Below are positions 862 through 40,713 of a DNA stretch of 45,988 bases, in pieces; the first letter of the stretch is position 1; each line of letters opens with the position of its first letter. The notes under the pieces are model-generated. The model did not search any database. It worked only from the letters and a program-made list of their open reading frames with translations, and had not been told where the DNA came from. Both the position numbers and the translations under genes were made by a program. Source of the stretch: Chloroflexota bacterium (lineage in GTDB: Archaea > Iainarchaeota > Iainarchaeia > Iainarchaeales > GCA-2688035); the NCBI GenBank assembly GCA_017610335.1, contig JAFCCG010000006.1, positions 1 to 45,988 of the forward strand, read 5' to 3'.

Positions 862-3003
862 TCATAATCGATCTAACGGGCTTTTGACTTTTTTTAATTC
901 TGCTGTGCTTACCCTGGTGTATATTTGGGTTGTACTCAGGTCATTGTGCCCTAAAAGTTCCTGTATTTTCCTGATGTTTTCACCAGCTTCCAGAAGGTGT
1001 GTAGCGTAAGAGTTATGCATAACAAAACCGTCGGCTACAAAATTTTCGTTCTTTTTAACTGAAAAGTCAAATACCTTTGCCCTGCCCTTTTTCTTTAATA
1101 TTTTTTTGATTCTTAACCACTTGAAGTTATCTCCAATCAATGACCTAAGTGCGTAATTCTCTTCTTCAAAACCCTCCATATGCTTGGTTTCGCTCAAAAT
1201 TTTTTCAACAGTTTCTCTTACCGGTGTAATTTTTTTAATGTATCTTTTAAAATGTCTTATTTTTTGCTTGTTTTGTATTTTGTAAATAGCACCTTGTTTA
1301 TCCTCTTTTAACTTTAAGTGTATTTTTTCTAAAACTTTTTGGGCCGGTATTTTTTCTCCAACAAACAACAATTCTGTTTTTAGCTTTTTTAGTGTCGGAA
1401 CCGTTTTTATGAATAAGAGCTGATCTGGTTTATGCAGGATAGCTAAATACAACCTAGTGTGCTTTATTATTTTTCCCTGAGGCAATTTAACCCGTCTGTT
1501 TCTACTATATAAATGGGAATCTATTCCTAAGTGCAATAATAATGCTTGTATATCTTTTAGCAGTTCTTTGCTTGCTGAAAAAAACCTTATTGTTCCTTCA
1601 TTTCCTTCTGCGTCATAAAAACCGGCTAGAAAAAATCGGATTTCCTCAATAGACGATTTGAACAATTCTTTCGGAACCCTTTTCAAAGGGGCTCTTACTG
1701 CCATTCCTTTGTTTTTTAAGTTTTCAACGAGTTTTTTTGAGTAGTGTATTAACTCAAAACTCTTTGAATTTCTATTCCGAACAACAAATGGTTTTTTCCC
1801 TAATTCTTTTTCAAATAGGGTTTGGTAAAATTTTAAGAAAAGTTTGTTTTTATCACTAATAATTATCCCTCTTTGGCTTTCGCTAACTGTTCCGCCCCCT
1901 AAAATATAACCAAGCATTCTCCACCAATCAACCGTTTTTGTGGGTTTTCCCTGTAAGGGTATTTTTTTAAGCCCCAGTACCCAATCTCCTGCCTTTAGGT
2001 CGCCTGCGCAGGCCTCTGCAAGACCGTTTTTACTTGTTGTAAAAAAACGATGTTCGGGGGTGCAGGTAATGCAATACCCCCCTGCCCAAATCTCTAAACA
2101 TTCTTCGGCACCCTGTTTTTCTTTTCCAACAAGAGCGGCATTTATTACTTTGTTAGAATTCCAATCAACGCTTTGGACCAGTGTGGGTTTTTGTTGAAGA
2201 TATAATTCAGACGCAGAAAGAACTCCTTCTTTTGTAAAAACCCTCGTTTTTGATTCTATACAGTGCCGTAAGGTGTGTGGCGTAACCTTTTTTTGAATTC
2301 CTGCTTTTTCTGCTGCTTTTTTTACAACTCTTTGTACAGTGTCTGAGGAAAGTGGTTTCCCATTTTTTTTACTGAAAACAAAAGGGCTTTTGATTTTTTT
2401 CTTTTTGAGATATTTATTTATATGTTTTAACCATTCTTTTGACAAAATTATTATTCTGTCCTTGTTTCCTTTTCCTCCTCTTATTGAGGCAATTCTTTCT
2501 TTAAAATTCAGGTTCTCTGTTTTGAGTTTTACACATTCACTTACTCTGCAGCCTGAGCTGTAAAGAAATTCTACCATTAACCTATCTCTTTTTGCAGGTG
2601 CCGCCTTTATCAAATCTTTTACTTCTCTCTGACTAAGCACCAATGGCAACTTTTTTGCCTTTTTTGCAATTTTTATATCATCAACTATTTTTTTACGCAT
2701 TACTTTATGGAAGAAAAAATGCAGTGCTGCGTGAACTAATGCGAGAGTTGCATTACTTACATTTCCTTTCTCTTTTTTTTCTGCAAGGAATTCAACCAGG
2801 GCGTCTCTTTCTGTTTGTTCAATTGGCTTTTTTAAAAATCTGGCAAACTCGTTAAAATAACACAAATACATTTTTACAGTCCTTAAACTATAGCCGCTTA
2901 CTACCAGCTCCTGTCTTAACTTTTTAGCCCATGCCTCATTTCCAAGCCCTTCTTTAGGCACTTTTTCATTTATTCTTTCAGAAGGTGTTGCGGCATAATC
3001 CAT
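862..3003 (-). CDS. XerA/XerC-D-type tyrosine recombinase precursor with an intein
   Basis: A 713-residue precursor. Residues 1-247 plus 665-713 form a 296-residue tyrosine recombinase: SAM-like N-terminal DNA-binding domain (about 20-105), then the catalytic domain with Arg153 (SSGCRVSE), Lys178 (GGKGNKDR), His243-x-x-Arg246 (HTLRH), His686 (LLGHNDLS) and nucleophile Tyr695 (QIYTRV). The joined length is typical of archaeal XerA, which resolves chromosome dimers at a dif site. Residues 248-664 are an intein lying directly behind the H-x-x-R box, so the recombinase should be inactive until splicing restores [15 protein letters not shown], a perfect family match. Upstream DNA is A-rich with a weak TATA. 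I did not find a convincing dif site. Confidence 0.93.
1012..2262 (-). mobile_element. Intein with a LAGLIDADG endonuclease domain (residues 248-664 of the recombinase)
   Basis: A 417-residue intein. It starts at Cys248 ([13 protein letters not shown], block A), has block B with TPEH at 315-318, endonuclease motifs at 364-371 (LGYILGGG) and 459-467 (LAGFYDAEG), and ends with block F and G (KVFDFSVKK...VADGFVMHN) at His663-Asn664. The next extein residue is Ser665. Thus all the splicing residues are present: Cys1, block B Thr and His, the penultimate His, the terminal Asn and a +1 Ser. In the first LAGLIDADG motif the acidic residue expected before the last Gly is Gly370, so cleavage is probably lost or weak, while Glu466 in the second motif is kept. 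Splicing looks intact; homing looks decayed. Confidence 0.92.
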
Positions 3004-4475: not shown

Positions 4476-4562
4476 ATGGAATTAAGGGCAGAAATAAAAT
4501 TACAGTCTTTTTCTGGCATTTTATTTAAAAAGATCTTAATTTCCTTAATTGGAGGTAATTAA
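4476..4562 (+). CDS. Possible 28-residue leader ORF upstream of the TRAM gene
   Basis: ATG at 4476 opens a 28-codon frame (MELRAEIKLQSFSGILFKKI...) that ends at TAA 4560-4562, one base before the TRAM gene start. Its last codons contain the TRAM ribosome site GGAGGT. A GGGTG sequence lies just before its ATG. This arrangement allows translational coupling, but the length is too short to prove coding. Confidence 0.25.
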   Translation: MELRAEIKLQSFSGILFKKILISLIGGN

Positions 4563-4563
4563 C

Positions 4564-5280
4564 ATGGCATATAGTCAGTATAATAGAAGAAGGTTTGAAG
4601 GCGAAAAGCCAGTAAACGAAGGAGAAACATATGATATAGTAATTGATGCTACAGGTGCAAAAGGAGATGGAATTGGCAAAGTCAAGGGCTTTGTTGTAAT
4701 AGTCCCCAATGCAAAACCAGGCCAAACAGTAAAAGTCAAAATTGACGCTGTAAGAGGCAAGGTTGCTTTTGGTACACTTGTTGGTGAAGCAGAAGCTACT
4801 CCTGCTGGAGAAGCGGCTGAAGAAGAAACTCCTAAGGGCGAACAAGCTGAAGAACCTGCTGAGGAAGAAGCAGCAGGCCAAGAAGAACCTGCTGAGGAAG
4901 AAAAAGCAGGCCAAGAAGAACCTGCTGAGGAAGAGCCTGCTGAGGAAGAAAAAGCAGACCAAGAAGAACCTGCTGAGGAAGAGCCTGCTGAGGAAGAAAA
5001 AGCAGACCAAGAAGAACCTGCTGAGGAAGAACCTGCTGAGGAAGAAAAAGCAGGCCAAGAAGAACCTGCTGAGGAAGAAAAAGCAGGCCAAGAAGAACCT
5101 GCTGAGGAAGAAAAAGCAGGCCAAGAAGAACCTGCTGAGGAAAAAGAAGCAGACCAAGAAGAGCCTGCTGAGGAAGAGCCTGCTGAGGAAGAGCCTGCTG
5201 AGGAAGAATCTGCTGAGGAAGAATCTGCTGAGGAAGAAGACGCTGAAGAAAAGCCTGAAGAAGACAAAAAGAAGGAATAA
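4564..5280 (+). CDS. TRAM-domain RNA-binding protein with a long acidic repeat tail
   Basis: A 238-residue protein. Residues 1-75 are a complete archaeal TRAM domain (GETYDIVIDATGAKGDGIGK, then VKGFVVIVPNAKPGQTVKVKI and VRGKVAFGTLV), a small beta-barrel that binds tRNA and other structured RNA; archaeal stand-alone TRAM proteins act like cold-shock RNA chaperones. The remaining roughly 160 residues are almost only Glu, Ala, Pro, Lys, Gln and Gly in repeats such as AEEEKAGQEEP and AEEEP. Stand-alone TRAM proteins normally end near residue 75, so the tail is unusual. The ATG at 4564 follows GGAGGTAATTAAC. Long frames seen in other registers here are shadows of the repeat. Confidence 0.85.
   Translation: MAYSQYNRRRFEGEKPVNEGETYDIVIDATGAKGDGIGKVKGFVVIVPNAKPGQTVKVKIDAVRGKVAFGTLVGEAEATPAGEAAEEETPKGEQAEEPAEEEAAGQEEPAEEEKAGQEEPAEEEPAEEEKADQEEPAEEEPAEEEKADQEEPAEEEPAEEEKAGQEEPAEEEKAGQEEPAEEEKAGQEEPAEEKEADQEEPAEEEPAEEEPAEEESAEEESAEEEDAEEKPEEDKKKE
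4840..5250 (+). repeat. Tandem repeats coding for the acidic tail of the TRAM protein
   Basis: Two nested units alternate: a 33-bp unit (GCTGAGGAAGAAAAAGC... coding AEEEKAGQEEP or AEEEKADQEEP) and a 15-bp unit (GCTGAGGAAGAGCCT coding AEEEP). All units are multiples of 3, so copy-number change alters tail length but not frame. Confidence 0.9.
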
Positions 5281-34031: not shown

Positions 34032-34868
34032 TTATTCAAACCCTCTGTTGTCAATCAATCTTGTTTTTCCAAAAAATACTGCAAGCCCTATTCTGTTTCT
34101 TTTTTTAATTTTGTTAACTGGCTTTAGCGACGCAGAGTCAAATATTTCAACATAGTCAATTTTTCCACTTGTTTCAGAGATTTTGTCAGAAACTGCCTGT
34201 CTTACCGTTTCTGCATCTTTTTCGCCTTTTGAAAACATTTCCTCTGCAAGTGCAAGAGATTTGTTCAAAACAACTGCCTCATTTCTTTCCTGTTTTGAAA
34301 GATAGGCATTCCTACTGCTCATTGCAAGCCCATCCTTTTCTCGTATAATAGGGCAGCCAATAATATTAATGTCAAAGTTCATGTTTTTAGTCATTTTTTT
34401 TATTATTACAAACTGCTGAAAGTCCTTTAAACCAAAGTATGCAGAATCAGGAATTACTGCTTTAAACAATTTTGTGACAACTGTTGCAACTCCTCTAAAG
34501 TGTGCTGGTCTGCTTTTGCCACATAAAACCTGTCCTATTTCTCCAACTTCAACAAATTTTGTTTTTCCTTTGTATATTTCTTCAGCGCTTGGATAAAATA
34601 TTACGTCTACGCCCTCTTTTCTGCACCGTTCTGAGTCTTTTTCAAAATCGCGAGGATATGACTCAAAGTCTTCATTTGGAGCAAACTGTGTCGGGTTTAC
34701 AAAAATGCTTACAACAATCATGTCACATTCTTGCTTGGCCTTTTTTACAAGGCTTAAGTGGCCTGCATGCAAAAATCCCATTGTTGGAACAAATCCAATG
34801 GTTTTTCCTTCTGCCTTTTTGGCTTTGGAAAATTTTTGCATTTCTTCAATTGTTTTAATTACCTGCAA
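34032..34868 (-). CDS. panC: Pantothenate synthetase (TTG start)
   Basis: A 278-residue enzyme joining pantoate and beta-alanine with ATP. PTMGFLHAGHLSLVKKAK carries the HIGH-like HAGH, FVNPTQFAPNEDF the substrate loop, FGLKDFQQFVIIKKM and MSSRNAYLS the KMSKS-like end. No in-frame ATG fits the family start, but TTG 34868 gives MQVIKTIEEMQKF, the standard PanC beginning, preceded by AAGGTGAAACAAA. The start lies inside the end of panE. PanC belongs to the bacterial-type route; most archaea use pantoate kinase and phosphopantothenate synthetase instead. Confidence 0.93.
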   Translation of the reverse strand: MQVIKTIEEMQKFSKAKKAEGKTIGFVPTMGFLHAGHLSLVKKAKQECDMIVVSIFVNPTQFAPNEDFESYPRDFEKDSERCRKEGVDVIFYPSAEEIYKGKTKFVEVGEIGQVLCGKSRPAHFRGVATVVTKLFKAVIPDSAYFGLKDFQQFVIIKKMTKNMNFDINIIGCPIIREKDGLAMSSRNAYLSKQERNEAVVLNKSLALAEEMFSKGEKDAETVRQAVSDKISETSGKIDYVEIFDSASLKPVNKIKKRNRIGLAVFFGKTRLIDNRGFE

Positions 34869-35754
34869 TTTGTTTCACCTTTTTTACTTCTAATTCTTTT
34901 TTTTTGTTTTTTTTTACTTCTAATTCTTTTTTTTTGTTTTTTTTTACTTCTAATTCTTTTTTTTTGTTTTTTTTTACTTCTAAGATGTAATCTATTTCTG
35001 TTTTTTTGTTATTTCTAATATCCTGCAGCATTGAGGAAAGGTTTTCTGAAAACTTTATTTTGCAAATTTCTTCATATTCTTCTTTGTCAAATATTATTCC
35101 TTCTTTGTCAAGCACTAGTTTGACTTCGTTTAAAATCCCTTTCATTTCCTTTTGGTGTTCTATAACTTCACTGTTTTTTATTCCGTATATTGCTGTTAAA
35201 GGATTTAGTACACAGTTTACAAGCATTTTTTTCCAAACGTCTTGTTCTATGTTTTTCGAAACTTCTGCATTCAGCCCGCATTGTTTTAAATCTTCAACAA
35301 TTTTTTCAGATTCTTCACTTTTTTCAATCTTAAGATATCCATTGTAAGAAATTTTAATTCTGCCGAATTCTTCAAAAATAATCGCCTGGTTTGTTACAGC
35401 CCTTAATACCTTGCAGTCAACCAAACTTCTAACAAGTTCTTCTATTCCATAACCATTCTGCAGGCATATAATAATCGTGTCCTCTTTTACCTTGTTTTTA
35501 ATTGACAAAACAGCATTGTGTGAATCTATCACTTTTGTAGTCAGGAATACAACAGTGTTTTCTTTTATTTCTTCAACCTCTGTTACTGCCTTTACTTTGA
35601 AAATTCCTTTCTTGCTTCCGTCAATCTTTAATCCCTGGCTGTTTATTGCGTTAACATGTTCTTTTCTTCCAATAAGCAGTACGTTACACTGTCTTGAAAG
35701 CATTGCTCCATAATAGCTTCCAATTGCTCCTGCTCCTAAAATAATGTAATTCAT
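34855..35754 (-). CDS. panE: 2-dehydropantoate 2-reductase with a repeat tail
   Basis: A 299-residue NADPH-dependent ketopantoate reductase. MNYIILGAGAIGSYYGAMLS is the nucleotide-binding start, IICLQNGYGIEE and NQAIIFEEFGRI follow, and KKMLVNCVLNPLTAIYGI with SSMLQDIRNNKKTEIDYI form the catalytic domain. The expected C-terminal part after T-E-I-D-Y-I (about 35-40 residues with the G-x-P-T-P-x-N segment) is absent and replaced by lysine-rich repeats ELEVKKNKKK. ATG 35754 is chosen for the GGAGA 8 nt upstream. It overlaps panC by 14 bp, so the pair is translationally coupled. Confidence 0.85.
   Translation of the reverse strand: MNYIILGAGAIGSYYGAMLSRQCNVLLIGRKEHVNAINSQGLKIDGSKKGIFKVKAVTEVEEIKENTVVFLTTKVIDSHNAVLSIKNKVKEDTIIICLQNGYGIEELVRSLVDCKVLRAVTNQAIIFEEFGRIKISYNGYLKIEKSEESEKIVEDLKQCGLNAEVSKNIEQDVWKKMLVNCVLNPLTAIYGIKNSEVIEHQKEMKGILNEVKLVLDKEGIIFDKEEYEEICKIKFSENLSSMLQDIRNNKKTEIDYILEVKKNKKKELEVKKNKKKELEVKKNKKKELEVKKVKQIAGN
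34886..34982 (-). repeat. 30-bp tandem repeat at the panE 3' end
   Basis: The 30-bp period (ACTTCTAATTC plus a T-rich run, plus strand) is repeated exactly three times from 34886 to 34975 and partly again. It codes for ELEVKKNKKK units and ends just before the panC ribosome site. The period is a multiple of 3, so it keeps the frame. Confidence 0.9.
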
Positions 35755-35891
35755 TTTCATTTCTCCAATAATATACTTAATACTCAAGCTTTTTTATTTC
35801 AACTCTATGTCTCTTAAGAGGGTGTTATCAATTTAGTCTTTTACCTGCCAATTTGCTCTGTTTTAAATAATTTATTGCATTAATATTTGCA

Positions 35892-39850: not shown

Positions 39851-40005
39851 TTTCCGCCATTTTATTCCAATCCGAATTCCAAACCAAGGCTTTTAAGGGA
39901 AAGAATCACCGGAAACCTGGACTATCCAAAGCGCTTTAAAAAGCAGATTCTTTATCTTAATGAGCAGGTTCATCAACACAGTTGCTTGTAGGAGTTGATA
40001 AAGAA

Positions 40006-40713
40006 ATGATTTCAGAAGAAAGAATAATGGGGTTTGTGGAAGGGGAAGGGTGCTTCAATATCGCAATCCAACGGTATATTGACAGGAAATCAAGGAAAAC
40101 AAGCAAAAAATGGGGGCACACTAATGCTCACTTGTTTCATATAAGGCCTTCTTTTAGGGTAGGTGTATGTGAAGCAGATCGTTGGATTCTAGATGAGATA
40201 AAAAACACTTTAGGTTTTGGAGCAATTTATTTGCAGAAAAGGTCTTTAAAAAATCCACGCGAACAAGATTTTGCACAGTATTATACAAAGAGTTTTGAAG
40301 AATGCTTGAAAACAAAAAATTTCTTTCAAAAACAGACATTTTATACTAGAAAAGGCCATGATTTTCAGCTATGGTGCAAATGCCTTCAAATTATAGACTC
40401 TGGCAATCATTTGAGTAAAGAGGGTATTTTGGAGATTTGTAAAATTCGTGACCAAATGAATTATTTGAAAACAAAAAACAAACGCAGTACGATAGAAATA
40501 AAAAAAATTCTTGAACTGAAACCATTGCATCTTATATCCCATTTTGACGAAAAACAAGAGAAACTTATACATAACAAAAACTTCAATCAAAAGACCTGGC
40601 TTGCCTCAAAACAAGGCAATCACCTAAAAGGTCGCTTAGAATCGAATGTGGAGGAAAAGCTAGCGGAAGTGGCAGAAACGGCAAATACTAATCAAAATAA
40701 TAGTGGAGGTTAG
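40006..40713 (+). CDS. LAGLIDADG homing endonuclease (single motif, free-standing)
   Basis: A 235-residue protein. RIMGFVEGEGCFNIAIQR near the start is a LAGLIDADG helix with its acidic residue, followed by PSFRVGVCEADRWILDEIKN and KNTLGFGAIYLQKRS and YYTKSFEECLKTKNFF, all typical of LAGLIDADG_1 enzymes of the I-CreI/intron type, which cut as dimers. ATG 40006 is chosen because GGAG lies 11 nt upstream. I see no rRNA or tRNA exon at its flanks, so it appears to be free-standing, perhaps beside a past insertion site. Confidence 0.85.
   Translation: MISEERIMGFVEGEGCFNIAIQRYIDRKSRKTSKKWGHTNAHLFHIRPSFRVGVCEADRWILDEIKNTLGFGAIYLQKRSLKNPREQDFAQYYTKSFEECLKTKNFFQKQTFYTRKGHDFQLWCKCLQIIDSGNHLSKEGILEICKIRDQMNYLKTKNKRSTIEIKKILELKPLHLISHFDEKQEKLIHNKNFNQKTWLASKQGNHLKGRLESNVEEKLAEVAETANTNQNNSGG

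Follow-up and report, generated by a model that had tools for sequence, protein, structure and literature searches.

A putative class 1 intein lacking one endonuclease acid divides the active site of an archaeal XerA recombinase

It is well established that inteins can occupy the active sites of DNA enzymes. In the 45,988-nucleotide stretch of DNA analysed here (the window; JAFCCG010000006.1), which is one contig of a 1.29-Mb archaeal assembly (95 contigs, 87% complete), a gene for a XerA-like tyrosine recombinase appeared to be interrupted among its catalytic residues by an element of this type. We asked whether such a gene could still yield a working recombinase, how and when the insert reached it and whether the insert could still move. 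Taken as a whole, our data make it highly probable that a homing intein able to splice arrived late in the xerA gene of this lineage and then lost the first catalytic acid of its endonuclease.

The interrupted gene is one open reading frame encoding both exteins and the insert (Table 1). The original prediction had placed an intein from Cys248 to Asn664, directly behind the H-x-x-R box, and expected a recombinase of ordinary length after its removal. These boundaries were found to be exact to the base. A chance match can be dismissed, since the xerA gene of the nearest relative, G002 (contig DAOWAC010000068.1), lies in the same gene neighbourhood and is uninterrupted, and its protein is 93% identical to the joined exteins with no gap at the site. 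Excision of the 417 residues from the 713-aa precursor leaves a 296-aa XerA that keeps all six catalytic residues and scores above the cut-off of the archaeal XerA equivalog model NF040815. With the insert included, the precursor also matches this model (247 bits against a cut-off of 220 bits), whereas the main DNA segment alone reaches 203 bits because the intein splits XerA. Pfam matches on the precursor comprised Phage_integrase in two stretches (1.5e-40), Intein_splicing (2.3e-17), LAGLIDADG_3 (1.5e-12) and a SAM-like N-terminal domain; as for NCBIfam, intein_Cterm matched and intein_Nterm was slightly under its cut-off.

Table 1. Features of the interrupted xerA gene, in window coordinates; residues in precursor numbering unless marked as intein numbering
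Feature	Position	Strand	Evidence or remark
xerA precursor, 713 aa (N-extein, intein and C-extein)	862-3003	-	ORF; Pfam and NCBIfam matches
N-extein, residues 1-247; SAM-like domain and first part of catalytic domain, ending in HTLRH	2263-3003	-	
Intein, residues 248-664 (417 aa), class 1 layout, Cys1 to Asn417 in intein numbering	1012-2262	-	
C-extein, residues 665-713 and stop, with His686 and nucleophile Tyr695	862-1011	-	
Cys248, intein residue 1, N-terminal splice nucleophile	2260-2262	-	
Block B TPEH (Thr315-x-x-His318)	2050-2061	-	Sequence; conserved in G026
LAGLIDADG homing endonuclease domain, approximately residues 353-537	1393-1947	-	Pfam LAGLIDADG_3, model, Foldseek
Block C motif LGYILGGG	1891-1914	-	Gly370 codon GGC at 1894-1896, in place of the catalytic acid
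Block E motif LAGFYDAEG	1603-1629	-	Acidic Glu466 at 1606-1608
Block G His663-Asn664, penultimate His and terminal Asn	1012-1017	-	Sequence, TIGR01443; Asn664 codon at 1012-1014
Ser665, +1 extein nucleophile, codon TCT	1009-1011	-	
Catalytic H-x-x-R (His243, Arg246), directly before the insertion	2266-2277	-	Invariant in 30 sequences
Catalytic Tyr695, separated from H-x-x-R by the intein	919-921	-	Invariant in 30 sequences
Candidate co-conversion tract, upstream part (-13 to -1)	2263-2275	-	Window-lineage substitution cluster
Candidate co-conversion tract, downstream part (+1 to +9)	1003-1011	-	Window-lineage substitution cluster

The layout of the insert is that of a class 1 intein, with Cys as its first residue, the T-x-x-H of block B (TPEH), a block F of the form VFDFSV...ENFVADGF, and His663-Asn664 of block G before Ser665; all splice residues named in the original prediction are present. 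Block F is without the His common in other inteins (the sequence is KKNENF), and the solved TFIIB intein, which was the top sequence match in the PDB, likewise reads AENF there. An AlphaFold model of the intein gave pLDDT values mostly of 77-92 in the nuclease domain and weaker ones in the Hint part, and its top Foldseek matches were the TliVMA and PhoVMA inteins, PI-PfuI, PI-SceI and I-DmoI. The first four share with it Hint blocks A, B, F and G and an inserted LAGLIDADG nuclease with two motifs, and PI-PfuI resembles it in sequence as well as in fold; unlike them, the present intein is hosted by a tyrosine recombinase and lacks the acid of the first motif. Its identity to the nearest archaeal intein structures is only about 19-22%. 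Judged from these features, the insert is a class 1 intein with a LAGLIDADG homing endonuclease and looks able to splice. After translation, an N-S shift at Cys248, transesterification to Ser665 and cyclisation of Asn664 would let the intein excise itself and would rejoin the exteins into an active 296-aa XerA.

In LAGLIDADG enzymes, the acids of both motifs bind the catalytic metals. The LAGLIDADG fold of the insert was seen both in the Pfam match and in the Foldseek matches to I-DmoI and PI-PfuI, and the second motif is intact and keeps Glu466, whereas the first motif carries Gly370 (GGC), as had been predicted, at a column occupied by Asp in 17 and by Glu in 1 of the 18 other inteins compared. 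I-DmoI has a similar nuclease-domain fold (target TM 0.6-0.7), and the acid of its second motif is also Glu (E117); the equivalent of Asp21, the acid of its first motif, is Gly in the window. The remainder of the nuclease can be compared with the XerA intein of G026 (L008), an archaeon of the same order and another family. This element has the same insertion point and size class (415 versus 417 aa) and is 53% identical to that of the window; it differs in keeping an intact LGDG and in its host, whose XerA exteins are 60% identical to ours. Identity between the two inteins is 47% and 62% in the nuclease halves and 56% and 47% in the Hint parts. Since the remaining nuclease is thus as similar to G026 as the Hint parts are, one recent damaging change fits these sequences better than a long decay. 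The open frame through the nuclease should not be taken as a sign of selection on this domain, since any stop codon there would also destroy XerA. The Gly370 codon depends on a single base of one incomplete assembly and might reflect a consensus error or a polymorphism.

Could the endonuclease still be working? Either tolerance of Gly370, an assembly error or activity as a nicking enzyme would leave the element mobile, and several observations agree with this: the rest of the nuclease domain is conserved like the splicing domain (47-62% versus 47-56%), the second acid is in place and GGC is a single transition away from the Asp codon GAC. However, an acid in all 18 other inteins at that column and the general role of both motif acids in metal binding make a working enzyme unlikely. 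In the reading that we prefer, the endonuclease would formerly have recognised the empty xerA site, which codes for a nearly invariant protein segment, and the first acid (Asp or Glu) would since have been replaced by Gly370, so that cutting and homing are probably gone. The intein would persist because precise removal seldom happens and because splicing gives back an intact XerA. The earlier proposal that the need for XerA maintains splicing while homing has decayed stood in part: constraint on the exteins (see below) and the missing acid accord with it, but what looks like a fairly recent arrival, with a single hit in an otherwise conserved nuclease, does not accord with long decay.

The insertion had also been regarded as unfamiliar in a Xer recombinase, with a search of archaeal XerA proteins proposed for the same insertion point. 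A search of the open-access literature gave no report of a XerA intein or of an intein at this bond of a tyrosine recombinase. A review of archaeal tyrosine recombinases does not mention inteins, and the inteins of phiCbK lie in TerL and the RNR alpha subunit rather than in its tyrosine recombinase. On the other hand, the sequence comparison indicates that the insertion point is not unique, as the same peptide bond is filled in two other archaea and empty in G002. Besides G026, an archaeon of another phylum (G524; L097) carries a 346-aa insert at the identical bond, where HTLRH is followed by C...N and then S. BLAST gave no significant match between this insert and the window intein, and the two also differ in that the G524 insert is shorter, ends with GN instead of HN and has a weak Intein_splicing score, so that its status as an intein rests mainly on placement and splice residues. 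Thus, at least two apparently unrelated inserts occupy the same XerA bond in two phyla.

No further occupied XerA was found among the matches listed in 1,679 genome searches (some genomes being searched more than once); about 150 matches were listed per search, and weak occupied cases may therefore be missed. A scan of genome contigs gave only the empty allele of G002. Several long recombinase frames were ruled out as intein-bearing: one is an ordinary XerA within a long frame (G238), three run on into an HsdS-like frame (G889, G860 and G910) and four have a long N-terminal frame and an uninterrupted box (G1388, G1404, G1442 and G1452). In G001, xerA is broken across two contigs near the site, and intein sequence was present on neither end. 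These ends (L038 1-191 in C54 and L039 3400-3791 in C116) overlap near the site with a few bases different, and one of them has Thr rather than Ser at +1; a strain mixture is suspected.

Several lines of evidence bear on the time of arrival. The intein is absent from the sequenced congeners of the window, and in the extein tree the window is nested with the intein-free G002, G003 and G005 with starred support, so that at least three changes are needed to place the intein on the tree. When the window and G002 are compared, no other run of 12 codons in the gene diverges as much as that at the junction (11 of 12 changed; rank 1 of 260), part of this divergence falling on the G002 branch. The +1 Ser codon is TCT in the window and AGT in G002, G003 and G005, the intein-free congeners with a complete xerA. 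When window-specific substitutions were defined as positions at which G002 and G003 agree against the window (n=49), 7 of the 30 positions within 15 nt of the junction had changed, compared with 42 of 858 elsewhere (p = 8e-4). All seven lie between -13 and +9 and none from -14 to -90, and the other two branches had no such enrichment. The signal depends on seven substitutions and on branch polarity, and it weakens when the stretch is widened (p = 0.013 at 24 nt and 0.04 at 30 nt); the cluster is therefore suggestive, not decisive, of the trace expected from homing with a very short co-converted tract.

Together, these sequence comparisons suggest a lineage-specific and fairly recent acquisition, and the loss of the nuclease acid is therefore probably recent as well. 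We infer that the homing endonuclease carried the element horizontally into this lineage after its split from the congeners, bringing a very short tract of flanking DNA with it. A donor was sought and none was found: plasmids gave one weak match (24% identity), phages gave only ordinary integrases among the matches listed plus one weak match to the intein region, and viral contigs gave only distant Hint matches, the junction pattern being without a match there; the G026 intein is too divergent to be the donor. An insertion into an ancestor shared by the whole order, or by several archaeal phyla, followed by vertical descent and loss almost everywhere would be compatible with the host-like codon usage of the intein and with the identities to G026 (53% for inteins and 60% for exteins), in which there is no excess similarity demanding a recent exchange. 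We nevertheless consider such an old insertion quite improbable, given that, among the matches listed, the intein occurs in only 2 of the phylum's 87 genomes, that the window lies inside an intein-free genus with three changes forced, that the substitutions cluster at the junction in this lineage only and that precise loss of inteins is generally rare.

The host protein bears on the question of splicing. In an alignment of 30 XerA proteins, Arg153, Lys178, His243, Arg246, His686 and Tyr695 (precursor numbering) are invariant, and the intein is inserted directly after His247, itself invariant, and ahead of the +1 Ser. The extein shares this R-K-H-R-H-Y set with the archaeal XerA of P. abyssi (4a8e) and T. 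acidophilum (5hxy), and the intein-free XerA of G002 matches 4a8e at 7e-56; unlike those proteins, the window XerA has an intein separating H-x-x-R from the final two catalytic residues. Before splicing, the active site is therefore divided, and the precursor would be inactive. The role of published archaeal XerA in resolving chromosome dimers (PMC2958812) makes it most likely, by analogy, that the host enzyme is the one separating joined chromosomes in this archaeon. No second strong XerA could be identified in the assembly of the window (87% complete), where scores drop from 203 bits to 83 bits for the next match, although a second copy may lie outside the assembled part. In the comparison of the window with G002, xerA has a dN of 0.036 and a dS of 0.85 (dN/dS of about 0.04), and on the window branch 3 nonsynonymous codon changes stand against 29 synonymous ones. 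By these measures, xerA is under strong purifying selection, although part of the dN/dS divergence may predate the insertion. The low dN relative to dS indicates that the spliced product is very probably functional, and the single strong XerA together with this selection suggests that splicing is probably efficient.

Does splicing also regulate the enzyme? It had been proposed that conditional splicing might act as a switch on chromosome resolution. In a fuller form of this reading, the intein would be retained because temperature, redox or bound dif DNA controls its splicing and thereby the activity of XerA. The divided active site of the precursor would allow this, Cys67 and Cys85 of the window intein (intein numbering) are also present in that of G026, and conditional splicing has been shown for the RadA intein of P. 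horikoshii (PMC5790916), which likewise occupies the active site of an enzyme of DNA recombination; RadA, however, is a RecA-type ATPase with a mini-intein, and regulation was shown for that intein. Against the proposal, the distribution is sporadic, the sister species is without the intein, a search for a conserved regulatory feature gave none, and the AlphaFold model of the whole precursor (mean pLDDT of 59) is too weak for intein-extein contacts. We found no regulatory evidence for a switch and regard it as very improbable; if it were true, XerA would represent a new class of splicing-regulated DNA enzyme, and the H-x-x-R site might be a recurrent intein target as delayed activation of XerA is tolerated or useful. 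That xerA is a pseudogene or its intein dead for splicing, as might be supposed from a block F without the common His, is least credible in view of one open frame through 713 codons, the low dN/dS and few nonsynonymous changes, the full set of splice residues and the similar block F of the TFIIB intein.

XerA, the archaeal chromosome resolvase, can be added to the list of intein host proteins; both the host family and the insertion site are new for inteins, and the site is filled in at least three archaea. The element itself is a parasite of an ordinary kind, and it is the host gene that is unusual. The window with its damaged nuclease, G026 with intact acids and the empty allele of G002 form a convenient series in which homing and its loss could be studied. 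They also offer a natural way of testing whether chromosome resolution is affected when an intein sits in a recombinase active site.

Some other observations were made in the window and related genomes. Two further inteins are present in the same genome (L001 919-3246 in G000:C78 and L004 952-3273 in G000:C81), the hosts being a Cdc48-like AAA ATPase and the archaeal release factor aRF1 (eRF1 domains), and the aRF1 intein also contains an HTH_3 domain. The window itself has a free-standing LAGLIDADG_1 endonuclease ORF of 243 aa (39982-40713, plus strand; Pfam 1.1e-12); the window was searched for an RNA that might be its intron host, and neither a tRNA nor an Rfam RNA was detected. A TRAM-domain protein (4549-5280, plus strand) has a long acidic repeat of the EEPAEEE type that gives rise to long spurious ORFs in other frames, and an ORF resembling ketopantoate reductase by sequence (34855-35787, minus strand) ends in a tandem EVKKNKKKEL repeat. 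The sister contig DAOWAC010000068.1 (L037) is titled 'Chloroflexota bacterium', which is probably wrong, its xerA and synteny being those of the archaeal genus of the window. Finally, some tyrosine recombinase frames of archaea from another phylum (L111 108-1577, L112 541-2394 and L113 3028-4974) run on into HsdS-like frames and lie near type I restriction genes, possibly reflecting specificity switching by recombination.
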